Of a DNA stretch of 64,000 nt, positions 11,487 to 64,000 are shown piece after piece. Each line of letters starts with the position of its first letter. Position 1 is the first letter of the stretch. The notes beneath the pieces are model-generated. The model ran no database searches. It was not told the origin of the DNA and worked only from the letters and a program-made list of their open reading frames with translations. The stretch comes from Marinobacter sp. es.042. GTDB lineage: Bacteria; Pseudomonadota; Gammaproteobacteria; Pseudomonadales; Oleiphilaceae. The DNA lies in contig NZ_LT897781.1 in assembly GCF_900188315.1 (NCBI RefSeq), forward strand, positions 3,872,137 through 3,936,136. The letters run 5' to 3'. A program made the translations under genes and the position numbers.

Positions 11487-11981
11487 GTGAACAGTTATGA
11501 AGATGTACTGGTGGCTCTCAGGCGGGTTATACGGGCGACGGACCTTCATTCGAAGCGCCTAAGCAAGCATGCCGGGCTGACAGGGCCACAGCTGCTCATC
11601 ATGAGAACGATTCGGGATCTGGGCGAGGTGACTATCGGTACCATTGCGGAAAAGGTCAGTCTTAGCCAGGCGACGGTAACGACCATCCTGGACCGTCTGG
11701 AGCATCGGAACCTAGTTTATCGAGTACGCAGTACCCAGGACAAACGCAAGGTTCACGCGCACCTGACTGAAGAAGGCGCAGATCTTCTGGCCCGGGCGCC
11801 CAATCCGTTGCAGGAGGATTTCATTCAGAAATTCCAGAGCCTGGCAGAATGGGAGCAAACCATGATTCTCGCGTCGCTTCAGCGGGTGGCCAACATGATG
11901 GATGCCGATGATATTGATGCATCACCGGTGCTGACCGTTGGGTCAGTTCTTAAGGATGACGGGTGGAAGGAAAAAACCTGA
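11487..11981 (+). CDS. MarR-family transcriptional regulator
   Basis: 164 residues from the GTG at 11487, chosen because a GGAG sits 8 bases upstream and the winged-helix domain starts soon after. The frame is open further upstream but without typical MarR sequence. Residues about 30-115 form the winged helix: TIGTIAEKVSLSQATVTTILDRLEHRNL is the recognition region and RSTQDKRKVHAHLTEEG the wing. MarR dimers usually bind a palindrome and respond to small ligands. It is convergent with lon and divergent from the TPR gene, so neither neighbour identifies the regulon. A link to osmotic-stress regulators of the EctR type is possible but unproven. Confidence 0.85.
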   Translation: MNSYEDVLVALRRVIRATDLHSKRLSKHAGLTGPQLLIMRTIRDLGEVTIGTIAEKVSLSQATVTTILDRLEHRNLVYRVRSTQDKRKVHAHLTEEGADLLARAPNPLQEDFIQKFQSLAEWEQTMILASLQRVANMMDADDIDASPVLTVGSVLKDDGWKEKT

Positions 11982-52406: not shown

Positions 52407-52470
52407 TAGGGCGTCAGAAACAACAAAACCCGCACGTGGCGGGTTTTGTCTGAATTTTTAATGGTGCCCG
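52407..52470. repeat. Direct repeat copy 1: terminator plus tRNA-Phe 3'-end-like sequence
   Basis: From TAGGGCG through a terminator to ATGGTGCCCG, this closely matches 53050-53115 (only a few mismatches and a small gap). The right end corresponds to the last bases of tRNA-Phe (minus strand) and is then followed by unrelated sequence. The copy flanks a 580-base segment with the EF-hand gene. Confidence 0.75.
52423..52449. terminator. Terminator in direct repeat copy 1
   Basis: Perfect 11-bp stem acaaaacccgc/gcgggttttgt (52423-52433 with 52439-52449). It serves the small hypothetical gene on the plus strand and can also end the EF-hand gene's minus-strand transcript. Confidence 0.8.
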
Positions 52471-52887: not shown

Positions 52888-53049
52888 GGTAATGCCCTCT
52901 GAATCTTTGCATTACTGGTGTTGGGTGCCAAAAACAAAGGATATGCCAATGTCGCCAGGGGCGCCAGACATTCCTGTGCTGCAACTGCGGGGCTGAGAGA
53001 CCAGTGGTTGGCAGGGGGGAGTTGCGAAGTGTTTGTGGCGGATGCCCCT

Positions 53050-53115
53050 TAGGGCGGCCTGGAAACAACAAAACCCGCACAAGGCGGGTTCTGTCTGAAT
53101 TCTTAATGGTGCCCG
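53050..53115. repeat. Direct repeat copy 2: terminator plus tRNA-Phe 3' end
   Basis: Partner of 52407-52470. Here the homology continues into a genuine tRNA-Phe 3' half (53107-53154), so this copy is likely the original locus and copy 1 the displaced duplicate. Confidence 0.75.
53068..53094 (-). terminator. tRNA-Phe terminator
   Basis: Stem acaaaacccgc/gcgggttctgt with one G-U/mismatch (53068-53078 with 53084-53094), directly downstream of the tRNA-Phe 3' end on the minus strand. Confidence 0.75.
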
Positions 53116-53154
53116 GAGGCGGAATCGAACCACCGACACGGGGATTTTCAATCC
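53107..53154 (-). tRNA. tRNA-Phe 3'-half fragment (prophage attachment site remnant)
   Basis: Read on the minus strand, the sequence from the anticodon arm (GATTGAAAATCCCC, anticodon GAA) through the T-arm (GGTTCGATTCC) to CCGGGCACCA is an exact tRNA-Phe 3' half. The 5' acceptor strand and D-arm that should precede it are missing; unrelated sequence begins at 53155. It is therefore one end of an att site used by the integrated phage; the intact, reconstituted tRNA-Phe should lie past the integrase, beyond 64,000. Confidence 0.85.
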
Positions 53155-53266
53155 TTTGCTAGAGCTGCTCAATAGTCCACAGTGCTGCACATTCAAGCAC
53201 TTACGGAAATGTAGTTCCACACATGACCACTCATGAACGCAGATACGTGGACACTATGCGGACACC

Positions 53267-53533
53267 CTAAAAGCCTTTGTATACCGTGTCGCGGCGACCG
53301 ACAGTCACAACCGTAACGACCACTTTGCCATCGTCTACGTGGTAAACCAGGCGAAAGCCTTGGGATCTGAGTTTGATTTTGTAGAAGTCAGAGGATCCCT
53401 TTAACTGATGCTTTGGAATCCTCGGATTCTCTAGGCGTCGCTCCAGAATATTCAGGAACTCCGTCTTGACGGCAGGGTTAAGTTTGTTCCATTCCTTGAG
53501 CGCTTTTTTCTTGAATTCCAGCTCGTAGCTCAT
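53267..53533 (-). CDS. RelE/StbE-family toxin
   Basis: 88 residues beginning MSYELEFKKKALKEWNKL, with FYKIKLRSQGFRLVYHVDDGKVVVTVVTVGRR, the RelE fold with the Arg/Tyr residues of ribosome-dependent mRNA interferases. It is a toxin that would cleave mRNA in the ribosomal A site. Its start overlaps the antitoxin end by 56 bases, so antitoxin and toxin are co-translated. Carried at the left end of the prophage it can stabilise the integrated element. Confidence 0.9.
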   Translation of the reverse strand: MSYELEFKKKALKEWNKLNPAVKTEFLNILERRLENPRIPKHQLKGSSDFYKIKLRSQGFRLVYHVDDGKVVVTVVTVGRRDTVYKGF

Positions 53534-53768
53534 TGATGCTCACCGGTATTGATTCGTCATCCATACGCTTGCGAGCCTCCTGTAGAAGCCGGTAATCCTC
53601 AAGCTGCTCTTGCATCTGTTCGAATGTCTCGACAGGCACCATGTAGGCTCTTGGTTTGTTGTGACTCAAAATCACAATCGGTTCGCCGTTGGCCTGGTTG
53701 AGCACCTCATTCGGATTAGCTTTCAGCTCCGAAATGGTGGCCGCAAGCCTCGCAAAAAGGCTTTTCAT
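53478..53768 (-). CDS. Phd/YefM/StbD-type antitoxin
   Basis: 96 residues. The N-terminal DNA-binding part matches the Phd/YefM pattern: ISELKANPNEVLNQANGEPIVILSHNKPRAYMVPVETFEQM. The C-terminal tail (EARKRMDDESIPVSINELR) is the toxin-binding region. It should neutralise the RelE/StbE toxin and autorepress the operon. The 12-bp tandem repeats at 53886-53915 lie about 120 bases upstream. Confidence 0.9.
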   Translation of the reverse strand: MKSLFARLAATISELKANPNEVLNQANGEPIVILSHNKPRAYMVPVETFEQMQEQLEDYRLLQEARKRMDDESIPVSINELRAGIQEKSAQGMEQT

Positions 53769-54304
53769 GTCAGTTCTCCCGTGCCCTCATCCATAGTTTG
53801 TGGTTGCCCGCTCACCACTAGCTTTCACTCAGCCTATCACTCGCGGCAACATTCATTGCTATTCGGCACTACTCTGAATAATAGACTAAAAAAAGGTCTA
53901 AAAAAAGGTCTAAAAAGTGGCTTGGCGTAGTGTTGGCGGGTTTTCAAGGGGCCGGGCAGGGCATTATGAGAGCCTTACCGTAGCGTATGCGAGTGCACAA
54001 ACACCACTTTCCACCACGTTTTAAGCATATGGGGTTGTAGCTAACCGCAGTAGTCCACAATAAACCTCTAATCGGTGGTTACTCTGTTGGCACGCTGTGA
54101 GCTCCTATCCCAACCAACTCTATTTCACCCATTTTCTCTTAACAATATTTGGAGGTTTAACATATTGCGAGGCTGTCTGACGGGGGCTGCGCATTTCGCT
54201 TTGCACATCACTACTATAAATGAGCGGCTTCTTTGGAGGGTTAGTAAGAAGGAAAGTGGCTATCGTTCTTAACCATTCTTCAGCCGCGTTTATGGATGTT
54301 TCTC
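53769..54304. other. Non-coding stretch between antitoxin and unknown gene
   Basis: About 535 bases. It holds the antitoxin promoter region and the 12-bp tandem repeats (53886-53915). Beyond those I see no frame with a ribosome site or coding bias, no RNA gene and no clear terminator for the minus-strand operon that ends at 54305. Confidence 0.5.
53886..53915. repeat. Tandem 12-bp repeat (ctaaaaaaaggt)
   Basis: Two complete copies (53886-53897, 53898-53909) plus a partial third. The 12-bp period puts A-tracts roughly on one face of the helix, as expected for an intrinsically bent segment or iteron-like protein-binding site upstream of the antitoxin. Confidence 0.7.
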
Positions 54305-55096
54305 TCATTTCTTTTCCAGCAAAGGATTCTTTGCCGCAGAGGGAAGCTCCTCCGCCCGCGCCTGTGTTCGAAAAACAATGTCTGAAATCTCTCGGATTCT
54401 GTCAACGAAAGGTTTGGCGTCAGTACCAAATTTGCCAATAACAACTCCAGCATCTCCGACCAAACCCCACAACCGGTCAACGTCACTCATCCGTTTGTGG
54501 AGCTCCGACTGCAGCCTCTCTAGTCTTCGCAATAGCCTTGTCTTGTGGTTCTCTTCAAAAAGCTCAGATACGGATATTTTTTCTCTAAGCTCGTTTATGA
54601 TTTCTTGAATTCGTTTCAAGTCTCCATCTGTGAATTCATAGTAAAAACCTTTTTCTAGTTTTGCTTTCTTTTTGTTTATCAAATCATAAAAATTTTTTGA
54701 CTCTCTATTTGCATTCTCTTCAATTATTAGTGGTTCAATCAAAGATCTTATTTTCGATGTATACCATATTATCTCTCTGATATTTTTCTTTCTGTCGTGA
54801 TTGAGTTTCGGAAGGCTTGGTTTTTTTAGGTCATCGAAGTATGAATCCTCTTCAATTGACGCAACTATTTCTGCTGCGATGTCTGTAATCTTGGGATAGT
54901 GTGCAACAAGCTTTGATAATTGGTTTTGATTTATTGATTCTATTAAGGAGTCCAGAAATGATAAATCACTCTTATTTGGATCTCGCACGCTGGTTTCTAT
55001 GAAAGATCCCATTCCAGACATGGCAGTGATTTGGTCAATTTCTTTCAACTTCCTGTGTAAGATTCTAGCTGGACTTTCATTAAACTCATTGCTCAT
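54305..55096 (-). CDS. Unknown protein of the prophage lysogeny operon (A)
   Basis: 263 residues, predominantly helical and charged, without signal peptide or membrane segment. The C-terminal third is the most distinctive: a helix LLRRLERLQSELHKRM, then SDVDRLWGLVGDAGVVIGKF and a region around KPFVDRIREISDIVF. I do not know a function. It is AT-rich with codon use unlike the phage structural genes. It follows the membrane protein gene (88 bases apart) and the S24 repressor on the same strand, so it is likely expressed in the lysogen. It could be a cytoplasmic effector or sensor in superinfection exclusion or anti-phage defence. Confidence 0.7.
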   Translation of the reverse strand: MSNEFNESPARILHRKLKEIDQITAMSGMGSFIETSVRDPNKSDLSFLDSLIESINQNQLSKLVAHYPKITDIAAEIVASIEEDSYFDDLKKPSLPKLNHDRKKNIREIIWYTSKIRSLIEPLIIEENANRESKNFYDLINKKKAKLEKGFYYEFTDGDLKRIQEIINELREKISVSELFEENHKTRLLRRLERLQSELHKRMSDVDRLWGLVGDAGVVIGKFGTDAKPFVDRIREISDIVFRTQARAEELPSAAKNPLLEKK

Positions 55097-55184
55097 GTTT
55101 TATTATCCAGTTTAGTATTTAAATATATAACTATATAACCCGCTCTGAGGTTTCGCACAAACTACCAATTCTGTCCTTCCGCGA

Positions 55185-56273
55185 TTATTTTTTGTTAATC
55201 TTTTCTAAAAGCTTTTCAATAAACTCATGCGAGCTGATCGGAATTTTTTGGTCCTCGCTTTCGATTGCGCGAGAGCCCATAAATATTTTATTAGCAAGCC
55301 TCTCTTTAATTTCGTTTCTTTTTTCCTCGGGGAGTGAAGACAGATACGGATCTACCGATTTAAGCTCCAGTGAAACCCTATGGTGATTTGTTTCAAGCAT
55401 TCTGTGCCTGGACGATTCTTTGGCAAGGTAGGCTGCAGGAATTGATAGGATCATGACTATCGCGATGCGGAAAATAGAATCTTGAATCGTGATTGTGTCA
55501 TTTACACTTTCCCACATCGTTATTCCCATAACTACAGTCATTAAGATCATAAAGAATAGGGAAAGACCTCTCAGAACATTTGCTACTTTTCGTTCAGCCG
55601 CCGCTGACTGCTGATAACTACCAGATATCGTATCTCGGGAGATAAGCTCAAGTAGCTCTTCTGCTTTGACCTCTTTTTCTTTCAAGCTTTTTATTGACTG
55701 CTCTATAAACTTGTCTGCATTTTCGAAGGTTTCTTCTAAAACTGATTTCATCTTATCTGTTGTGGAAGATATTGAGCTCAGCTCACCTCTAATATCACTA
55801 ATTCTCTCTTCAATGTCAGACAAAGCCTGGTTATTCTGGCTCGTTGCAGCATTCATCTTCTGATATAGGTCATCAATTTTGATGTTTATTTCCGTTAATG
55901 AAAGGTCTCGGCTTTCGCTAAACTCAAAGGGAGACTCGAATAGATAATAGCCCGATAGCTCACCCTGAATTTTGTCTGATTCACTAACTAAGATATTTGC
56001 TATTTCTTTGGCATGATCTTTAAGGTCGTCTTTCTCAAGAATCTTCTCGGCAATTGACTTTGCGCGTTTGCAGGATCCTATCGCGGATTCAATTATTGAT
56101 GTAGGCTTTTCGTTATTAGATAACTTGCTTTTGAATGATTTGTAAGAGGCGGTAAAGGAGTCAATGAATTTCTTGAGTTCCTTGGAGTCAAAAGTTTGTG
56201 ATTCTATGAGTAGTTTTTTAAGTAATTGTTCGATCCTATCGATTTTATGCGCTAGTTCGTTGTTTAGTATCAT
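55185..56273 (-). CDS. Coiled-coil membrane protein of the prophage lysogeny operon (B)
   Basis: 362 residues. Residues 1-115 are helical, about 125-230 form a long coiled coil (heptads around INIKIDDLYQKMNAATSQNN and TTDKMKSVLEETFEN). Two membrane helices follow at about 236-254 and 267-284, and the C-terminal domain SVDPYLSSLPEEKRNEIKER faces the cytoplasm. No enzymatic motif is visible. It begins 10 bases after the repressor stop with GGGAATT upstream, so it is co-transcribed with the repressor. This layout resembles prophage-borne exclusion or membrane-acting defence proteins, but that is inference. AT-rich. Confidence 0.75.
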   Translation of the reverse strand: MILNNELAHKIDRIEQLLKKLLIESQTFDSKELKKFIDSFTASYKSFKSKLSNNEKPTSIIESAIGSCKRAKSIAEKILEKDDLKDHAKEIANILVSESDKIQGELSGYYLFESPFEFSESRDLSLTEINIKIDDLYQKMNAATSQNNQALSDIEERISDIRGELSSISSTTDKMKSVLEETFENADKFIEQSIKSLKEKEVKAEELLELISRDTISGSYQQSAAAERKVANVLRGLSLFFMILMTVVMGITMWESVNDTITIQDSIFRIAIVMILSIPAAYLAKESSRHRMLETNHHRVSLELKSVDPYLSSLPEEKRNEIKERLANKIFMGSRAIESEDQKIPISSHEFIEKLLEKINKK

Positions 56274-56283
56274 ATAATTCCCT

Positions 56284-56985
56284 TTATAGATCCTTTCCTA
56301 CCCAAACTACTTTGCCAATCACTTCTAGGTTTTCAAGATCTGCCCTTGAAATCTCTTGCGGAGGATACTCTTTGTTGTCACTTAGCAGTTGTACTCCATC
56401 ATTCCACAGTGTCTGAATGCGCTTTACCAGTAAGTGGTCTCCGTTTCGGATCACATAGATATGTCCATCGCGGAGCTTCTTTTCGTTGGTGTCGACCATT
56501 ACAGTTTCGTTATCGGATATCGTCGGCTCCATCGAATCGCCTTTAGCGAAGACTAGTGCCAGATCGTTCTCGCTGAATCCTCGATATCTAAGCCATTTCC
56601 TCCGGAAAGCCAGTTCCCTGGTAGGTGCTTCGTTCCCAGCTATTGATCCGTGGCCAGCTGCTACCTGCACGTTGTAACCGGCGATGAGTGCAAACTCTTC
56701 GTCAAGGCGCTTTAATTTTTCAATGTCCTGACCTAGCTCTGTATGAGCTTGCTCTCCTTTCGGTTGCCCTTTTCCAGTTAGTAACCAGTTTGCGTCGAAG
56801 CCCATCTCAACAAGTTTGAGCAAGGTCTCTGCGTCAGGAACTCTATTGCCTCTCTCATAGTGGCCTAGAGAGTTTTTGTGCACTCCCAGCTCTTCAGCGA
56901 ATGCTCCTTGGCTCTTGGATCCCCTGATTTGGGTGAGCCTTTCTCCTATCGCCGCTGCGATAACGTTTTGTGTGCCTTGATGCAT
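56284..56985 (-). CDS. Phage CI-like repressor with S24/LexA-type autoprotease domain
   Basis: 233 residues. An XRE helix-turn-helix at about 22-65 (SQGAFAEELGVHKNSLGHYERG) precedes a linker and an S24 domain. The predicted self-cleavage pair is Ala110-Gly111 in QVAAGHGS, with catalytic Ser151 in KGDSMEP and Lys188 in LLVKRIQ. RecA-stimulated cleavage would link phage induction to DNA damage. It is divergent from the phage early genes across an operator array and heads the lysogeny operon containing the two unknown genes. Confidence 0.93.
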   Translation of the reverse strand: MHQGTQNVIAAAIGERLTQIRGSKSQGAFAEELGVHKNSLGHYERGNRVPDAETLLKLVEMGFDANWLLTGKGQPKGEQAHTELGQDIEKLKRLDEEFALIAGYNVQVAAGHGSIAGNEAPTRELAFRRKWLRYRGFSENDLALVFAKGDSMEPTISDNETVMVDTNEKKLRDGHIYVIRNGDHLLVKRIQTLWNDGVQLLSDNKEYPPQEISRADLENLEVIGKVVWVGKDL

Positions 56986-57011
56986 TTTGTGTTTCGCCTA
57001 GATCAAAAATA

Positions 57012-57079
57012 AACACATTAAGGTATTGCAATAACACCTTAAAGTGTTATATTGGTCTTAGTGACACACGAAAGTGTTC
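57012..57079. promoter_or_regulatory. Repressor operator array
   Basis: Related palindromic sites share AACAC/GTGTT half-sites: imperfect AACACattaagGTATT (57012-57027), perfect ATAACACcttaaaGTGTTAT (57031-57050; 20 bp) and GACACacgaaaGTGTTC (57063-57079). A looser GGTGTCG half-site follows near 57085. They lie between the divergent repressor and early genes, as in a lambda-type switch. Confidence 0.75.
57026..57053 (+). promoter_or_regulatory. Candidate rightward early phage promoter
   Basis: TTGCAA (57026-57031) and TATATT (57048-57053) separated by 16 bases. The perfect operator at 57031-57050 fills the spacer, so bound repressor would block it. Confidence 0.6.
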
Positions 57080-57128
57080 TAAATCGGTGTCGTTTTGTGT
57101 GTGAATCAGTGTAGCAGAGTGCAAAACA

Positions 57129-57332
57129 GTGGACGAGCAAAAGCAAATCATTCTGATCGCAACTCCGGTCATGACCCAGGACCGCTACGCCCAGCTTACT
57201 GGCTTAACGGAAGGGCAGGTACGGGGCCAGATCGAAAAAGGACATCTGCCTTCACTCAAAATCGGCCGGGTGCGCATGGTCAACATTGCTGCCCTGTCTC
57301 AGCAGGCCCTGGACCAGGAGGACTGGCAATGA
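57129..57332 (+). CDS. Small HTH protein (excisionase/CII-like)
   Basis: 67 residues from a GTG at 57129. The sequence MTQDRYAQLTGLTEGQVRGQIEKGHLPSLKIGRVRMV fits the MerR-like HTH_17 fold of phage excisionases and Cox/CII-type regulators. It is the first gene of the rightward transcript and directly follows the operators. It could be the directionality factor for the integrase. Its stop overlaps the next start (ATGA). Confidence 0.7.
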   Translation: MDEQKQIILIATPVMTQDRYAQLTGLTEGQVRGQIEKGHLPSLKIGRVRMVNIAALSQQALDQEDWQ

Positions 57333-57607
57333 CTCCGGATGTTCGCAACCAGAAGAAAACCATCATGCGCCTACGCTTCCAGCAAGCCTGTGAGGCTCAT
57401 GAGGCGGGCGATTACGAGCTTGCCGCCCTGCGCGTGAGCCAGATCCAACAGATGGTTTCTTCCTATATGGGTGTCGATTCCGGCCTCTACTGGTACGGCC
57501 TCAACCTCACCATCACCTGGGCCGAATTCTTCCTCCAGGACGATACCCGCGACTTCAACGCCTGGGCAGTAGGGCAGGCCTGCACCGGATTGAGGGCCGC
57601 CGCATGA
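57329..57607 (+). CDS. Hypothetical inovirus early protein 1
   Basis: 92 residues starting at the ATG overlapping the previous stop. MTPDVRNQKKTIMRLRFQQA is a basic helix; the remainder (YELAALRVSQIQQMVSSYM, WAEFFLQDDTRDFNAW) is helical, TPR-like in feel. No function recognised. Start and stop are each in ATGA overlaps with neighbours, strong evidence of a translated gene. Confidence 0.7.
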   Translation: MTPDVRNQKKTIMRLRFQQACEAHEAGDYELAALRVSQIQQMVSSYMGVDSGLYWYGLNLTITWAEFFLQDDTRDFNAWAVGQACTGLRAAA

Positions 57608-57933
57608 GATACCACCGCCAAGACGTCAGCAAAGCCATCAGCGCGGCCAGTTTTGCCTTCCAGGGCCCCCGTCCGTCCTCTGCGCTCACTGCCCAGGCCC
57701 TGGAAGGCCTTTTTGACACCCTCCTGCACCAGCTAAGCCAGCTGCAGGAAGTGCGCACCGACTACCCGTGCGACTACATGGCCCGCTGCAAAGCGGCCTT
57801 CACCGACGCCCTGATCCACGAACTGGAAGCCAGCGGCCATCACAGCCCGGCCTTTGACCGCCTTATACAACTGCGGGACGCCTGGGACTGCGGCCACCTG
57901 GATCTTCCCACCGTCACGGAGACGCAACCATGA
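57604..57933 (+). CDS. Hypothetical inovirus early protein 2
   Basis: 109 residues (MRYHRQDVSKAISAASFAFQ), helical with two cysteines (DYPCDYMARCKAAF). No domain recognised. It is translationally coupled by ATGA overlaps to the genes on both sides. Confidence 0.7.
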   Translation: MRYHRQDVSKAISAASFAFQGPRPSSALTAQALEGLFDTLLHQLSQLQEVRTDYPCDYMARCKAAFTDALIHELEASGHHSPAFDRLIQLRDAWDCGHLDLPTVTETQP

Positions 57934-58196
57934 GCCATATCCCCCCCAGAAAAGACCAGGTGGAAGACAAAGAGCGCCGTTTCTACGTCTGCGCTCCGTC
58001 CTCCATCTACCTCCAGCTGCAACAGGAAGCCATCCAACGGGGAACGGATCTCTGGACCCTCGGAGGTTCCGTCCTGACCGCCTGGCTGGAGGCTGGCTGC
58101 CCGACCTTTGGCACTCAGGACCAACCCCCTGAAAAGCCCACGAGTCCGCCCCCGTCATCGTCACCACTCGCGCACGAAAAGGGGGCCGGACAGTGA
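57930..58196 (+). CDS. Hypothetical inovirus early protein 3
   Basis: 88 residues. YVCAPSSIYLQLQQEAIQRG then TLGGSVLTAWLEAGCP resembles a small ribbon-helix-helix/CopG-like core, and the C-terminus is Pro/Ser-rich and disordered. It may be a DNA-binding regulator. It ends in a GTGA overlap with a further, doubtful frame. Confidence 0.65.
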   Translation: MSHIPPRKDQVEDKERRFYVCAPSSIYLQLQQEAIQRGTDLWTLGGSVLTAWLEAGCPTFGTQDQPPEKPTSPPPSSSPLAHEKGAGQ

Positions 58197-58573
58197 CCGT
58201 TACAAGGCTGGCGCGTAGCGCCAGGGCCGCAGGCCCCCTGGCCTTGTGGCGGGCTCTGGCTGGTCCACAGTGCGCATCCGGAGTGGTGAGGATGTCGGGG
58301 GAGGACGCCCGCCCCTTGATTCCGAACCATGAGCAAAGGCGGCAAACGGAGTGCGGCAGGCGACAGGGATCGTTACCCGTAAGGGTGGCCACCTTAGTGG
58401 CCAGGAGCAGAGCGAGTAGAGCCCGCCCCGAAGGGGTCGAAAAACCCAACTCAAACCCTTTCCACCATCACCACCAGGAAAGGCAGTACTGAAAACCAAA
58501 GTTAAATATTTAACCCCGGCCCAGCCGGACAACCAGCAACAGCAACACCCAACGAAACCAGAGGACACACGCA
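58197..58573. other. Structured, probably non-coding phage region
   Basis: About 375 bases. At 58203-58246 CAAGGC and GCCTTG close a three-way structure with a perfect CTGGCGC-gta-GCGCCAG hairpin (58208-58224) and a second hairpin (about 58221-58241). A frame from 58193 to 58492 is open but Ala/Arg-rich and spans these hairpins, so I doubt it is a protein. The region could hold a packaging signal or replication element of the single-stranded phage, or the promoter for the coat genes. Confidence 0.5.
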
Positions 58574-58870
58574 ATGGAAAACTACCTGAACCTCATGATC
58601 ATCGGCGCCACCCGCTACGACATCGACGGCAACCGGGGCGGTTCCCTGTGGGCCTATTCCCCAGCCGAAGCTGACGACGACAACCGAGTCGGCAACGAAG
58701 TCATGAAAATCGCCTGCGACTGGAAGCACATCGACCAGCTGCGCAACCACGCCGAACGTCTCCCGGCCATGTTCACCGTCAAGGCCCAGATGAAAGCCGG
58801 GCAGGGCGGCAAGATCACCTTCAAGGCCCTGGACATGAAACCCCAGGACCCGATCAAGAAAACCGCCTGA
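58574..58870 (+). CDS. Putative phage ssDNA-binding protein (gV-like position)
   Basis: 98 residues with GAGGACA upstream. MENYLNLMIIGATRYDIDG and FTVKAQMKAGQGGKITFKAL read as beta-rich, consistent with an OB-type fold, and it sits just before the coat genes where inoviruses encode the protein that coats viral ssDNA before assembly. The assignment rests on size, position and composition; I cannot recognise the family with certainty. Confidence 0.55.
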   Translation: MENYLNLMIIGATRYDIDGNRGGSLWAYSPAEADDDNRVGNEVMKIACDWKHIDQLRNHAERLPAMFTVKAQMKAGQGGKITFKALDMKPQDPIKKTA

Positions 58871-58880
58871 GTAAGAACTG

Positions 58881-59105
58881 ATGAACGTCATCACCTGCGA
58901 CGGTGAATGGACACAAGGATCCCAGGGCATCGAATGCACCGGGACCCTGCAAAGCATTCCTTATCAGGACGTCGACGTCCTGTTTCAGGAATACCTGGCA
59001 CCAGACGCCAGCGTCATCGGCCTGGTGTCAGGAATCGCCCTGGCTCTCTTCGTCACCGGAGTCGGTGCCGGAAGAGTCATCCAAGTAATGAGAAAGATCT
59101 CATAA
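58881..59105 (+). CDS. Putative minor coat protein
   Basis: 74 residues with one hydrophobic span (SVIGLVSGIALALFVTGVGAG) ending in a basic tail RVIQVMRKIS. Two cysteines lie in the N-terminal outside part (CDGEWTQGSQGIEC). Between the ssDNA-binding candidate and the major coat, this matches gVII/gIX-type tip proteins of inoviruses. Confidence 0.6.
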   Translation: MNVITCDGEWTQGSQGIECTGTLQSIPYQDVDVLFQEYLAPDASVIGLVSGIALALFVTGVGAGRVIQVMRKIS

Positions 59106-59127
59106 CCAACCCGAAAGGAAAAACGAC

Positions 59128-59397
59128 ATGAACGACATCATCGAAATGGAAAAGCAAAACAACTGCAAAACCTGGGGCATGGCCCGCGCTCGCTTCGGCA
59201 AACGCGCCGCCAAGATCGGTACTGCACTCGCGGCCGCCGGAACCTCTGTGACCGCGTTCGCCGTGGACCACACCGCAGAGATCACCGCCGCCCAGGGTGA
59301 CGCCACCACCAACACCACCGCAGCGGTTGCGGCGGTTATCGCGGTTGCTGCCGTGGTGTTCGGTGTGGGCATCGTCCTGCGACTGCTCAACCGGTAA
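59128..59397 (+). CDS. Major coat protein (pVIII-like)
   Basis: 89 residues. A long leader-like N-terminus (basic, RFGKRAAKIGTALAAAGTSV) ends in TAFA, a signal peptidase site. The mature ~45-residue protein has acidic VDHTAEITAAQGDATTNTTA, a hydrophobic helix AAVAAVIAVAAVVFGVGIVL and a basic C-terminus RLLNR that contacts DNA. This is the classic inovirus major coat layout. AAAGGAAA upstream is a good ribosome site, and the three hairpins downstream stop transcription. Confidence 0.85.
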   Translation: MNDIIEMEKQNNCKTWGMARARFGKRAAKIGTALAAAGTSVTAFAVDHTAEITAAQGDATTNTTAAVAAVIAVAAVVFGVGIVLRLLNR

Positions 59398-59416
59398 TGC
59401 TCACCAGCATCTTAAT

Positions 59417-59487
59417 AGCCTGTCTCTGGACAGGCTGTTTCGTGTCCGGTTACCGGACTGTGTAAGGGCCGGATTCCGGCCCTTTTT
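59417..59487 (+). terminator. Triple-hairpin terminator after major coat gene
   Basis: Three consecutive hairpins: agcctgtc/gacaggct (59417-59436), gtccgg/ccggac (59444-59458) and aagggccgg/ccggccctt (59464-59484), the last followed by a T run. A strong terminator after the coat gene is typical of filamentous phages and keeps coat expression far above pIII. Confidence 0.9.
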
Positions 59488-59509
59488 CATTCAGACAACG
59501 GTCCCAGTG

Positions 59510-60844
59510 ATGCGCCTTTCAATCCTCGCCTTCGTCACACTGCTACTGACGCTCGGATCCGTCCAGACCCAGGCGGCCACCTCCGTCTGGCATCAACAGT
59601 TTTACCTGGACCAGTGCAACAAGGTACCCAGCCAATCCGAGTCCTGGTCCTCGGCGCAATCCTTCATCGACTCCGACGCCGCCTGCTCCGCGACCAACGG
59701 CTACGCCTGCTACATCGAAATCACCGACAACGCCACCCAGCACTGCACCGGCACCAGCCGCGGTACCATGCGGGTCTTTCAACAGGCCTGCACCCAACTC
59801 AGCCATGAAGGCGGTGTACCCGAAGGCACAGCCTGCGGCCAATGTGGCACCGGCCACGTCCCCGATCCCAGCGGGGAAAGCGGCTTTGACTGCCGCCTGG
59901 AAAAAACCTTTGAAGAATGCCGCTACAACTTCATGAGCTATGACCCACGGCAAAAGAAATGCGTCACCGAATGCATCTACGGCGAACTCGATTACCGCTG
60001 CAATGCCGAACCCTTCGACGAATGCACCAGTGAAGCCGACGACTTTGTCGGCACCATCGGCTGGGGCGCCAACCGAAGAAACGTTTGCTCCGGCGACAAC
60101 CAATGCGCCGACAACGAAACCTTCGCCTTTGGGGAAGGCCCCGATGGCGCTTATACCGGCCAATGCGTCAATAACGACGCCAACCCGCCCATCTGCCCCG
60201 ATGGCTTCAAAGGCGGCCTGATCATTACCGAAGACGGCTTCGCCTGCGCCTCCCTCAATCCCGATGGTACCAACGAAAACGACACCTCCAACGGGGACAG
60301 CGACGGCGATGGGGAAGGGGATCTCACCGGCATGGCCGGCCAGCTCGACGACATCAAAGGCCTTCTCTCCTCCGGCAACACCGAACGCGGCAACATCAAG
60401 AACCAGCTCGACGGCATCGGCAAATCCATCAAAGACGGTACCCAGGCCATCACCGACGCCATCGGTAACATCCCCGGCGGGGGAGGTGGCGGAAGCGGAA
60501 ACGGCGACGGAAACAGCCAGACCGAAATCGTCGGCGAAGACGGCGAATCGATTACCTGGAGCGGGGAAGCCATCCCATTAGAACTGGCCGACGGCCTCGA
60601 TGAGCTCAACGCCGTCCAGGGCGAATACGAAACCCTCATCGCCAACATCCGCGCCGAAATGTCGGCCTCCTTCGGCTCCTTCACCGGGGCCGGTGGCCTA
60701 CAGGACAACAACATCACCCTCTACGGCGAGACCTTCAACGCCGGTCTTTCCAAGTTCGGAGCCGACCTCTCCATCCTCGGCTCCATCATCCTCTTTGCCG
60801 CGACCTTCATTGCACTGGGCATCATCATGGGAGCACGAGACTGA
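59510..60844 (+). CDS. Adsorption/attachment protein (pIII-like)
   Basis: 444 residues from the ATG at 59510. A signal peptide (cleavage near VQTQAA) is followed by a Cys-rich ectodomain (more than 15 cysteines, residues about 30-260), an acidic Asn/Asp/Gly linker, a Gly-rich segment GGGGGSGNGDG near residue 325, and a C-terminal membrane anchor LGSIILFAATFIALGIIMG. This is the pIII layout: N-terminal receptor-binding domains, glycine linker and an anchor that caps the virion. The receptor (usually a pilus and TolA) is unknown. The frame is open upstream of 59510, but that part spans the terminator hairpins. Confidence 0.8.
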   Translation: MRLSILAFVTLLLTLGSVQTQAATSVWHQQFYLDQCNKVPSQSESWSSAQSFIDSDAACSATNGYACYIEITDNATQHCTGTSRGTMRVFQQACTQLSHEGGVPEGTACGQCGTGHVPDPSGESGFDCRLEKTFEECRYNFMSYDPRQKKCVTECIYGELDYRCNAEPFDECTSEADDFVGTIGWGANRRNVCSGDNQCADNETFAFGEGPDGAYTGQCVNNDANPPICPDGFKGGLIITEDGFACASLNPDGTNENDTSNGDSDGDGEGDLTGMAGQLDDIKGLLSSGNTERGNIKNQLDGIGKSIKDGTQAITDAIGNIPGGGGGGSGNGDGNSQTEIVGEDGESITWSGEAIPLELADGLDELNAVQGEYETLIANIRAEMSASFGSFTGAGGLQDNNITLYGETFNAGLSKFGADLSILGSIILFAATFIALGIIMGARD

Positions 60845-61163
60845 TGGAATTCATTGCCACCTTCTTCGACGCCATCTGGGCCTTCCTGGAAGCCATCCCA
60901 CCTTCATCAACGACGCCATGGTCAAACTCTCGGCCTGGTACGTCATCTGGGTGACCAAGGCCAAAATCTACTTCGTCGGCTTTGCCTGGGGTGTTGCCCA
61001 GGAAGTCCTCAACCAGCTCAACATCTCCGGCACCATCAACCAGTACTGGGGCTCCATCGACTCCAAAGTCATGGGCGCACTGACCTACTTCCGCATCCCC
61101 GACGCCCTGAACATCATCCTGAATGCGCACCTGACCCGGTACGTCATGGGAGTGCTGAAATGA
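60844..61163 (+). pseudogene. pVI-like minor coat protein (DUF2523-like), frameshifted
   Basis: The ATG at 60844 overlaps the pIII stop and encodes MEFIATFFDAIWAFLEAIP, then the homologous sequence continues in another frame as TFINDAMVKLSAWYVIWVTK to YFRIPDALNIILNAHLTRYV and VMGVLK at 61163. One missing C in the run near 60897-60902 explains the shift. The restored product would be about 106 residues with hydrophobic segments, matching the pVI/DUF2523 cap protein by size and place. Either the locus is inactivated or the assembly lost a base. Confidence 0.75.
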
Positions 61164-62518
61164 CCATCAACATCCACCATGGCCCACCCGGCTCCTACAA
61201 ATCCGCCGGGGTCGTACAACGCTACGTCATCCCCGCCCTGACCGGAGAAGATAGTGACTACCCCGACGGTCGCTGCGTTGTCACCAACATAAGAGGCCTG
61301 GACTCCATCGAACGGGTGGAAGAAGCCTTCGGCGTCACCTGCGGCCCGGAATCCAGAATCATCAACCTTGAAACCGAAACCCGCGACGCCCTCGAATACG
61401 CCGCAAGATGGTTCCACTGGGTCCCGATCGGCGCACTCATCGTCCTCGACGAAGCCCAGGCGGTGTATCCCGCGGCCAGACGGGACTTCCGAATCGAACA
61501 CCTGGATTACCCAGGGGGCAAAGAAGCCGCCCAACGCGACAACCGCCCGGCAGATGTCCTCCTGGCCTTCGACATGCACCGCCACTACAACTGGGACCTG
61601 TTCCTGTGCACGCCCAACATCGGAAAGATCCACAAAGAAATCCGCCAGAGTGCCCAGCAGGCCTTCCGGCATTGGCAAATGGGCCACATCGTGCCCTGGA
61701 AGAAAAACAAATGGAGGGAACTGGAACATGACCCTGAAAACAGCGGAAAAGCTGCCTCCCATAGTATCGGTGTCCCAAAAGAGTACAAGGTCGACCTCCG
61801 GGTCTTCGAGTGCTACCAGTCGACGAAAACCGGCAAGGCCAAAGGGGTGGTCGGGGGTAATTCAATCCTTAAGGATCGCAAGTTGCAGCTTGCAGTTGTG
61901 GTTATCGTGGGCAGCTTCTCGCTGCTCGGCTATCAGGCGTACCACATTATCGAGCGCGAAAAGGCTCGCCTCTCGGGTGATCCGGTGGCTGTTCCCGAGA
62001 GTGATACGGCTGATGGTCGCGCTAACCCTGATGGTTCTGATGGGAGCCGCCTTGCGCCTGGTAGCCCGTCTGAGCGTTCTTTAGACCAAAACCAACAACA
62101 AAATGCCCCCAACTCACGCCAGCACCTGGAACACCCCTTCGCCGACGTTGAGCTACGCATCGCCGGCAGCGTCAACCGCCTCTACCTGTTCCAGGGCGAA
62201 GATCTGCAAGGGGAGTTCGCGCTTACCCAACAAGACCTTTCCAGCTTCGGCTACCGCGTCCTGTACCTCAGAGATTGTCACGGCCAACTCTGGTGGGACG
62301 GGGAGCGCGTCCAGGATCTGTATTGCCAACGCATGAGAATCCGAGAACCCGAACCCAGGCCAAGCTTCGAGCCAACCATGTTCCAGCCCTGGTCACGACA
62401 CGAAAGACCCGGCGCCAGCGGAGCGCTAGCGACGATGCGCGAGGAGCAAGCGCTCCGCTGGCGCCGGGGCGCAGCCCTGAGACGTCCCTGTAACACGTCT
62501 CATAGAAAACGACGGTAG
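61160..62518 (+). CDS. Zot/pI-family phage assembly ATPase
   Basis: 452 residues starting at the ATG overlapping the pVI stop. A Walker A variant GPPGSYKS at 8-15, Walker B ALIVLDEAQAVYP at 92-105 and DVLLAFDMHRHYNWDLFLCTPN form the cytoplasmic motor domain. A single membrane helix (LQLAVVVIVGSFSLLGYQAY, about 243-261) leads to a periplasmic tail with a Cys pair (LRDCHG and DLYCQ). It drives coat assembly and extrusion through the envelope. The last about 45 codons are made of two strong DNA hairpins (62408-62502), giving an Arg/Ala-rich tail. Confidence 0.88.
   Translation: MTINIHHGPPGSYKSAGVVQRYVIPALTGEDSDYPDGRCVVTNIRGLDSIERVEEAFGVTCGPESRIINLETETRDALEYAARWFHWVPIGALIVLDEAQAVYPAARRDFRIEHLDYPGGKEAAQRDNRPADVLLAFDMHRHYNWDLFLCTPNIGKIHKEIRQSAQQAFRHWQMGHIVPWKKNKWRELEHDPENSGKAASHSIGVPKEYKVDLRVFECYQSTKTGKAKGVVGGNSILKDRKLQLAVVVIVGSFSLLGYQAYHIIEREKARLSGDPVAVPESDTADGRANPDGSDGSRLAPGSPSERSLDQNQQQNAPNSRQHLEHPFADVELRIAGSVNRLYLFQGEDLQGEFALTQQDLSSFGYRVLYLRDCHGQLWWDGERVQDLYCQRMRIREPEPRPSFEPTMFQPWSRHERPGASGALATMREEQALRWRRGAALRRPCNTSHRKRR
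62408..62502. repeat. Two strong hairpins at the end of zot (candidate origin or packaging signal)
   Basis: A perfect 20-bp inverted repeat (62408-62427 with 62449-62468) around a 21-base loop, then an 8-bp one (62478-62485 with 62495-62502, TGAGACGT/ACGTCTCA). They overlap the zot 3' end, just before the rep gene. In filamentous phages the origin and packaging hairpins often lie between gI/gIV and gII. Confidence 0.7.
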
Positions 62519-62556
62519 TCGATTTTTAAACCACTTAGAACCACAGTGAGACACAG

Positions 62557-63819
62557 ATGAAAATCAGAGACTTCGAACGCATCGACACCACCACCGGCGA
62601 AATCGGAAAAGGGGACCTCTTCATCGGTCCGGAAGGCCAGCAAGTGAACCTGAAGAAGGTCAACGTCCTTTGGACCGGCACGGATACCGTAAGACAACTG
62701 TTCCAGGGACGCCTGAAACCCGAAATCCTCGCCGAGATTGCCACCGAATACGAATCCGGCTTCGACGCTACTCTCACAATCAAGAAGATCCCTTTCCGCC
62801 TGCAATCCGGCAGACGCGGTGGCTTCAAATACATCCTGCAAAATCGGGAATACGGCCTGACGATCCTGCTTCAGAACTTCTACGCCGAAGCCGACACCCT
62901 GGCACGCACGTTAAATCGAAACCTCCCCCAGATGGCTCTATGAACGCTCCAGCCAAGAGATCCACGACGAGCTTGGGGAGTGGGGTATGTACTTCCTCAC
63001 TAACATCAAGCCCGTTGGCATCGCACTCCACCTGGCCGTCGACTTCCAGGGCTGGGAACCACCCCAAGACTTTGCCCAGCACTTTGTCACAAGGGCCCGA
63101 ACCATCAGCGTCCACAACGGCATGAGCGATTTCCACTTCCAGGGCCTGGAGGCTCCACCGTCAACGGCCGAGGCGAAACCTACACCTTCGGCAAGGCTAA
63201 CAGCCTGCAGGTCTGCCTCTACGACAAATCCAAAGAGGTCGATGTCAGCGACAAACGCGCCTTCATGGAATCCATCTGGGAATGCGCCAGCAACGAAGAC
63301 TGCTTTCCGGACACCTGCTATGACCGGAAAAGCCCGTCTGGCGCCTGGAAATCCGCTTTCATCACGGATCGTCAACGAGATCTCCCAGGGCACGCCCAAC
63401 ATGAAGCCCATCTACACCTACAATGGACGCGGTACGCACCTGACTGGCCTCTGGCAGTACGCCCTGCAACAGCAACCGTTACGAGGTCAAACGGGAATGG
63501 GTGCACCCCATCTGGACCAAGCTCCGCGAAGACATCGGCTTCGGCTACTCGGCCCCGGATCTGCTCTACAAACGCGCAAAAAAGGAACCCGGTTGCGGCA
63601 ACGAAAAGAACGTCTCCCTGGCCTTTGGCAATCTCTTGTCCATTTATGCACGCAACCGTTTTAAACCCTCGTCAGGCCTGGGACTGCCTCAAGAAATCCG
63701 GACTTTGGGAGGACCTGTGCGCCTATTACCGACGACGGGAGATCTATGAAAACGAGCTATTTCAGCTCGTCCAGGATGGCCTGATAAAACGACGACTACT
63801 GACAAAGGTGGCGGCATGA
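62557..63819 (+). pseudogene. Inovirus replication initiator (rep), broken by multiple frame changes
   Basis: The start is intact: MKIRDFERIDTTTGEIGKGD through GFKYILQNREYGLTILLQNF, then the gene must be read by switching frames. Successive segments are WGMYFLTNIKPVGIALHLAV and the following VDFQGWEPPQDFAQHFVTRA (about 62970-63155), GETYTFGKANSLQVCLYDKS and MESIWECASNEDCFPDTC (about 63165-63325), KPVWRLEIRFHH (about 63335), ISQGTPNMKPIYTY and LTGLWQYAL (to about 63470), YEVKREWVHPIWTKLREDIG to LLSIYARNRF (to about 63660), and RQAWDCLKKSGLWEDLCAYY to the TGA at 63819. It matches a phage-X/CRI-type rolling-circle initiator of about 420 residues. At least six frame changes, mostly single bases in short homopolymers, and almost no missense signs are visible. 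Confidence 0.8.
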
Positions 63820-64000
63820 TCAGGAAGCTACCATCTGGGCGATGGCAAGTAGATATCCAGCCGGGCGGGAGAGGGCAGAAGCGCGTCAGAAAATCCTTCG
63901 ACTCAAAGGCAGAGGCGCTGCGTTTCGAGCGCTGGGCACTCAACAGCCATGCAGCTGGAGAAGATTGGAATCCGAGCAAGGATACTAGGACCCTTAAGGG
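63816..64000 (+). CDS. Phage tyrosine integrase, N-terminal part (truncated by window end)
   Basis: The ATG at 63816 overlaps the rep stop. The visible 61 residues, MIRKLPSGRWQVDIQPGGRG then KRVRKSFDSKAEALRFERWA, form the three-stranded arm-DNA-binding domain typical of phage integrases of the Phage_integrase/SAM-like family. The catalytic domain lies outside. It should recombine attP with the 3' half of tRNA-Phe, matching the fragment at 53107-53154. Confidence 0.85.
   Translation, partial: MIRKLPSGRWQVDIQPGGRGQKRVRKSFDSKAEALRFERWALNSHAAGEDWNPSKDTRTLK

Follow-up and report, generated by a model that had tools for sequence, protein, structure and literature searches.

Two genes that follow the repressor gene of a filamentous prophage in Marinobacter sp. 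es.042, here termed X and Y, represent, as the strongest statement we can make, two unnamed families of repressor-linked cargo found in the company of known defence genes. Their order, orientation and composition were directly observed, as was the recurrence of their relatives at corresponding sites in unrelated phages, in part next to defence genes, known or candidate. We regard it as fairly probable that X and Y occupy a repressor-linked cargo slot as accessory genes, putatively expressed in the lysogen and protective, and probably independent of one another. Small filamentous prophages carry defence genes beside the repressor, and most of the genes there are nameless. The present case adds two unnamed families recurring in the slot of unrelated phages, and one of them, Y, has hundreds of homologues with a C-terminus conserved across phyla.

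Organization of the repressor-X-Y locus

The window, i.e., the whole stretch of 64,000 nucleotides analyzed, contains the following features of the prophage.

53108..53154, plus strand: 3' part of tRNA-Phe, a 47-base exact copy at the left prophage border (attachment-site copy)
53267..53768, minus strand: Phd/YefM-ParE-type toxin-antitoxin pair, additional prophage cargo on the side of X and Y (from ORFs, Pfam and PHROG)
54305..55096, minus strand: gene Y (P0001), encoding a soluble helical protein of 263 aa, 88 bases past X
55185..56273, minus strand: gene X (P0002), encoding a coiled-coil protein of 362 aa with a C-terminal two-TM hairpin, 10 bases past the repressor gene
56284..56985, minus strand: S24-type phage repressor (HTH plus Peptidase_S24) of 233 aa, heading the lysogeny gene run (Peptidase_S24, 1.4e-25; HTH_19, 1.7e-9; phrog_4, 1.9e-52)
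57129..57332, plus strand: excisionase-type (Cox-like) gene, divergent from the repressor gene (best match phrog_1864 of unknown function, 1.2e-19; Cox-like phrog_575, 3.3e-10)
60854..62518, plus strand: Zot/pI-type morphogenesis ATPase gene, a marker of filamentous prophages (Zot PF05707, 1.1e-36)

The repressor, X and Y genes lie on the minus strand throughout, with spacers of 10 bases (repressor/X) and 88 bases (X/Y). X and Y are thus co-directional with the repressor gene and opposite to the structural genes, the Zot/pI-type gene and a set of small genes being on the plus strand. The backbone was recognized as filamentous from the Zot domain (PF05707, 1.1e-36) together with phrog_1041/197, and no integrase of the window prophage was identified. 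The GC content was 0.386 for Y, 0.383 for X, 0.483 for the repressor gene, 0.589 for the phage body (57095-64000) and 0.568 for the whole window; the cargo is unlike the backbone in composition (0.383 vs. 0.589). An earlier note on this DNA had described the layout, spacers, strand, AT-richness, S24 repressor, two-helix X and soluble Y in the same way, and ORFs, GC content and hydropathy bore out this description in full. The frames of X and Y are regarded as real genes because homologues of both exist (see below). A scan of 53000-57600 returned 10 promoter-like sites (6.4 +/- 2.5 in shuffles), none of them in the 88-base gap between X and Y, and two terminator-like sites (4.3 in shuffles). 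Near the left prophage border, 52407-52470 and 53050-53115 form a repeat of 88% identity, perhaps an older attachment remnant, which includes an inverted repeat resembling a terminator as well as the beginning of the tRNA copy.

The end of the window is the end of the contig. With the genome taken as circular, a second copy of the prophage follows in tandem, and the pair spans 53063-64000 of the window and 1-11841 of L080, the stretch beyond the window, in which a complete tRNA-Phe is found at 11766-11841. The two copies are 99.5-99.8% identical, apart from 2,112 bp that are deleted in the second; one base overlaps at the deletion junction. The repressor gene, X and approximately the first 56 codons of Y were thereby lost from the second copy, while the Phd/YefM-ParE-type pair was kept in both. 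The repressor-less copy adjoins the intact one. It is possible that the tandem arrangement is an assembly error.

Gene X encodes a predicted membrane hairpin behind a variable coiled coil

The hydropathy of P0002 showed two peaks, at residues 233-251 and 260-278, and the AlphaFold model was all-helical with moderate confidence (pLDDT 75, pTM 0.33). Across the family, the N-terminal two thirds are a variable coiled coil, and the conserved part comprises the two-TM hairpin followed by AxYxAxESxxHR, LxLKxxxPY and SLP (AxYxAxESxxHR ... PYxxSLP in the shorter notation). Among 27 relatives of X, two TM peaks were seen in 15, one in 10 and none in two at a hydropathy threshold of 1.6, and two peaks in 25 and three in two at a threshold of 1.2; the second peak therefore depends on the threshold. 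Positively charged flanks of TM helices face the cytoplasm (the positive-inside rule). In P0002, positive residues precede TM1 and follow TM2, and the loop between the two helices is short. Since positive residues flank the hairpin, both ends of X are likely cytoplasmic by this rule, and the protein is predicted to be mostly cytoplasmic with only a short loop outside. Such a topology speaks against X sensing events outside the cell, and the proposal of the earlier note that X acts at the envelope where filamentous phages enter finds no support in it. Furthermore, nothing ties X to the entry of filamentous phages, because its relatives are also carried by tailed phages and plasmids, and one belongs to a restriction operon.

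No known family had been visible to the earlier reader, and this held for both proteins, as neither X nor Y matched Pfam or NCBIfam at the family cut-offs. The PADLOC search of X returned LmuB only (E = 0.15), which does not place X in a known anti-phage system. A match of X to phrog_29215 (function unknown) was detected at 2e-7 over residues 52-333. Single X relatives matched other NCBIfam families weakly, e.g., ZorA_1 in one of 27 (7.8e-5), which we take as coiled-coil similarity.

Besides X itself, 11 homologues were obtained at E<=1e-3, and more were found in phages, plasmids, IMG/VR and genomes. Counting the own genome in each case, the genome search detected X in 4 of 195 related genomes, and the X profile matched 2 of 124 genomes in the genus, 2 of 274 in the class (one of the two weakly) and 29 of 299 in the phylum. 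The phylum-level matches were mostly weak coiled-coil matches, and only L102, L103 and L104 were used. We met no description of either the X or the Y family in the literature; both are nameless, so that they cannot be searched for by name.

Gene Y belongs to a widespread family with a conserved C-terminal part

P0001 showed no TM peak in its hydropathy, and its AlphaFold model was all-helical with moderate confidence (pLDDT 77, pTM 0.50). No match to PADLOC was found. We identified 482 homologues at E<=0.01 and listed the best 120; the truncated second copy in the same genome is one of the homologues. In an alignment of about 25 sequences including P0001, all of the 35 invariant columns fell in residues 151-253. 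The C-terminal part is strongly conserved, and the N-terminus is variable; two or more forms of it can be told apart that, by visual inspection, appear unrelated. The 72 Y loci found in GTDB genomes belong, according to the record titles, to Pseudomonadota, Bacteroidota, Planctomycetota, Nitrospinota, Omnitrophota and others, and no common partner of the Y relatives was found in these loci. The largest recurring groups of neighbours within five ORFs comprised eight ABC-type and seven resolvase-type ORFs.

In 64 of 65 loci, the GC content of the Y-like gene was below that of its flanks (mean difference of -9.9 points), and in 40 of 59 it was the lowest of all genes, in contrast to the 6.2 loci expected. 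The 65 loci are the 72 GTDB loci minus L056 and L062 (no gene called) and L045, L047, L059, L065, L070 and L073 (ORF shorter than 450 bases), plus L075; 59 of them had at least four other genes for the ranking. Because of its low GC content relative to the flanks, often the lowest of all genes, Y bears the mark of a mobile accessory gene. On the other hand, neither the 50,697 phage records nor the 72,556 plasmid records gave a tblastn hit for Y, and the genome search found Y in 2 of 195 related genomes (own genome counted). Patterns derived from the profile matched Y in seven IMG/VR contigs. Single-sequence scans of viral contigs gave nothing or the same contig again.

X and Y are not a conserved pair

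The X profile detected a relative in a single one of the 72 GTDB Y loci, L025, 40 of the 72 stretches being at least 16 kb long, and the Y profile detected none in the stretches examined of the 21 other X loci. Among the loci scanned with both profiles, the two families thus occur together only in the window and in L025, in which the X-like and Y-like genes are one gene apart. The idea of X and Y as a conserved gene pair was consequently rejected; the earlier note had suggested a single two-component system, with conserved adjacency as a check, and the counts do not support it.

Relatives of X and Y behind phage repressors and beside defence genes

We compared 15 phage-type X loci, namely the window, L025, three phage records and ten IMG/VR contigs. 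Vibrio phage 10N.286.55.C3_PE002 was left out, being 99.8% identical to L083, and the following were treated as duplicates: L133 and L146 (contig of L091), L152 (L137), L132 (place of L079) and L075 (region of L029). A repressor gene lies directly upstream of the X-like gene and on the same strand in five of the 15 loci, including the window; the earlier note had advised looking for relatives next to further repressors. The four other cases are as follows.

L083, Vibrio phage 10N.286.54.F4_PE002, P2-like: CI repressor (CI by the depositor's note) upstream of the X-like gene, with a 1-bp overlap
L131, Vibrio phage 10N.286.45.F8_PE002, P2-like: CI repressor (CI domains by Pfam), with a 1-bp overlap with the X-like gene
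L092, IMG/VR prophage: S24 repressor 36 bp upstream of the X-like gene
L084, Microcystis phage vB_MaeS-yong1: putative repressor upstream of the X-like gene, assigned from position and sequence, with no Pfam hit

The repressors preceding X relatives are of different types. In two further loci, the inoviruses L091 and L025, the gene run that includes the X-like gene also begins with a repressor (phrog_147), but other cargo separates the two; in L091, this is a PLD gene. In the remaining eight loci (L093-L100), no repressor was found beside the X-like gene; the upstream region is cut off in L099 only. The X-like genes were GC-poorer than the remaining stretch in 17 of the 18 loci counted (mean difference of -11 points).

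Several neighbours of X relatives deserve mention. In L083, a NOV_C/DUF3427 gene is located downstream of the X-like gene. In L131 (4392-9206), genes for a CI repressor, the X-like protein, a 75-aa ORF, an AAA_21 AriA/Gabija-like ATPase and a NOV_C/DUF3427 protein are consecutive and may form a defence system of several genes. An X-like gene and a DUF4268 gene are inserted between the S and R subunit genes of a type I restriction-modification operon on a plasmid of Vibrio crassostreae (L082, 2483-11148). In L078 (1474-3532), the X-like gene is found shortly downstream of that of a DprA-type protein (PF02481, 6e-54; SLOG cluster4, 3.1e-8).

Relatives of Y were likewise found in phage slots. The inovirus of Pseudomonas alcaliphila JCM 10630 (L025, 4295-10866) carries genes for a repressor, HamA, HamB, the Y-like protein, phrog_7381, the X-like protein and a ParE-like protein. 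The Hachiman pair looks complete (HamA, 6.5e-129; HamB, 2.2e-258). Against PADLOC, the Y-like protein of this locus gave no match and the X-like protein LeoC only (0.002). In the IMG/VR inovirus L137/L152, the Y-like gene is the sole gene between those of the repressor and phrog_7381. In L136, which is P2-like by GpA (phrog_91), CII (phrog_101) and the integrase, an S24 repressor gene is followed by a gene of 295 aa with a partial PDC-S48 match (3.4e-10), the Y-like gene and the integrase gene. In M. nitratireducens (L029, the same region as L075), the Y-like gene is 3 bp from a match to a methyl-directed restriction enzyme (2.5e-75). In the gene maps of the five remaining Y-bearing IMG/VR contigs, no repressor gene adjoined Y. 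As to neighbouring defence genes, which the earlier note had advised looking at, some relatives are beside Hachiman or type I restriction genes, and Y has no common partner.

A variable cargo slot next to the repressor in Pf-type inoviruses

To see the slot apart from X and Y, we surveyed all 13 IMG/VR contigs with a phrog_7381 gene together with L025, which are 14 inoviruses of the Pseudomonas Pf type. All 14 possess the repressor and excisionase-type genes in the same order, and the gene order agrees with the Inoviridae records PfAC08 and PfAC02b. The interval from the repressor gene to the phrog_7381 gene is empty in two (L141 and L148) and filled in 12. The contents are Hachiman with Y; Y alone; PLD with X; a NACHT protein (2.5e-13); PDC-M53A/B; an unnamed gene with PDC-S31; DUF4238; and, in five, unnamed genes (L149 and L153 unscanned). 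Of the 13 unlabelled slot proteins, nine were scanned with PADLOC and eight with Pfam, those of L149 and L153 and the second of L151 with neither. All 13 filled slots (these 12 and that of the window) were GC-poorer than the backbone, by 17 points on average and by 3 points in the weakest case (L153). Slot content thus varies among the 14 Pf-type inoviruses, 12 of which have cargo, whereas the tandem copy of the window prophage differs by the deletion only; a close relative of the window prophage that differs in slot content was not found.

In the IMG/VR inovirus L145 (6136-7968), the NACHT-domain protein (SNaCT12 below cut-off) is the only cargo between the repressor and phrog_7381. The unnamed AT-rich slot genes of L142, L144, L149 and L151 are candidate cargo, and some of their products have an N-terminal membrane helix by eye. 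In PfAC02b and PfAC08, Gabija and IetAS are found on the same side, past phrog_7381.

Possible functions of X and Y

Because of the location of the two genes, we infer that both are co-transcribed with the repressor gene in the lysogen and protect it against other phages. The earlier note had proposed cargo for defence or exclusion. The location linked to the repressor and the relatives in like slots near defence genes uphold this part of the proposal, but not the obligate two-gene system. In sum, defence cargo is likely, an obligate pair unlikely, and envelope sensing unsupported.

If X and Y are indeed independent protective cargo, the N-terminal cytoplasmic coiled coil of X would, in the mechanism that we consider most likely, oligomerize and sense infection directly or via a cytosolic trigger. 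The C-terminal two-helix hairpin would then permeabilize the inner membrane and abort the infection in the style of RexB or SLATT effectors, the formation of a pore being suggested by topology and analogy. Y would be a separate cytosolic module, with a variable N-terminal part that recognizes a trigger and a strongly conserved helical domain at the C-terminus that targets some conserved component of the cell. The two genes would then probably protect independently of each other, sharing an operon without being obligate partners. A bolder version, which we put forward tentatively, regards them as two undescribed immunity families acting as stand-alone cargo, Y being a widespread single-gene defence and X a new class of coiled-coil, two-TM abortive effectors. 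The C-terminal domain of Y would here engage one conserved cellular target, with the N-terminus swapped for different triggers, and X would sit under phage repressors and respond to some signal of infection in the cytosol. As the genes are short and easily cloned, the idea that repressor-linked membrane proteins form a general class of prophage effectors is directly testable.

Other explanations were weighed against the same data. X and Y could constitute an obligate two-component exclusion system like lambda RexA-RexB, in which Y senses and opens the membrane effector X. A soluble and a membrane protein in a repressor operon are indeed the plan of cI-rexA-rexB, CarolAnn 43-44 and RexABpp, and the two families meet again in the P. 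alcaliphila inovirus with one gene between them. Nevertheless, an X-like gene is present in only 1/72 Y loci and a Y-like gene in 0/21 other X loci, P0002 could not be aligned to RexB, and the 23.9-bit match of P0001 to RexA recurs in only 2/121 family members, so that we consider such a system unlikely. It is rather improbable that X, Y or both serve the phage itself by regulating lysogeny, conferring immunity to phages of its own kind or exporting virions. Filamentous phages are not the only carriers of the two families, which are also found in tailed phages, the restriction operon and chromosomes, and 11 of the 14 Pf-type inoviruses have neither gene in the slot. The idea draws on KKP of Pf6, a prophage accessory module that is reported to control lysogeny besides defending, and on the tandem copy, which, without the repressor, X and part of Y, would need the intact copy for repression.

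We are more doubtful still about an addiction element, with one gene as a toxin restrained by the other gene or by the nearby Phd/ParE pair. A Phd-ParE pair is next door and ParE-like genes are on the cargo side in five of the 14 inoviruses, but the second prophage copy lost X and part of Y, and beyond the window and L025 each family was found without the other. A functionless module, carried along as neutral passenger DNA, would agree with the lack of a known phenotype and with the loss of the module from one of the two tandem copies. The intact frames, the 35 invariant columns of Y and the recurrence at equivalent slots in different phages are difficult to reconcile with this explanation, making it very improbable.

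Comparison with known systems

The inovirus accessory hotspot itself is already in print. According to PMC11630473, filamentous Vibrio prophages have a hotspot of accessory genes that is flanked by a regulator and often defence-related, and PMC11878078 states that the Pf phages of P. aeruginosa carry accessory defence genes such as Gabija and IetAS. The locus studied here shares with these the position of accessory genes beside a transcriptional regulator in a filamentous prophage. It differs in that X and Y are nameless in the libraries searched and that the host is Marinobacter.

In lambda RexAB, CarolAnn gp43/44, Sbash gp30/31 and RexABpp, genes for a soluble and a membrane protein are tied to a repressor as in the X-Y locus. 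In the X-Y locus, in contrast, the membrane protein gene comes first, and the two families are no conserved pair. The alignment of P0001 with RexA extended over 50 residues at a score reached by none of 200 shuffles. Nevertheless, RexA scored 2.1 bits against the profile of the Y family, and no Rex family was among the Pfam matches of the locus proteins at E<=1. Homology of X or Y to Rex proteins was rejected, as these tests against RexA and RexB failed.

X can also be compared with the SLATT proteins, which, as stated in PMC12632851, are needed in the DRT10 defence system and predicted to form pores. SLATT_1 of NCBIfam was the family touched by most X relatives (9/27; best E of 0.0013). P0002 itself scored 12.2 bits against SLATT NF033634 (E = 0.14), below the curated cut-off of 41 bits, whereas accepted SLATT members gave E values from 9.7e-20 to 2.2e-39. 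A thin comparison of the X profile with three SLATT sequences by hhalign was null, with a probability of 1.3. The SLATT layout, in which a conserved cytoplasmic helix comes after two TM helices, was nonetheless seen in the hydropathy of P0002 and in the family alignment. By analogy, X appears similar to RexB and SLATT effectors in design, with sequence membership established in neither. X and the SLATT effectors have in common the two-TM hairpin with cytoplasmic helices, and X is distinguished from them by its long N-terminal coiled coil.
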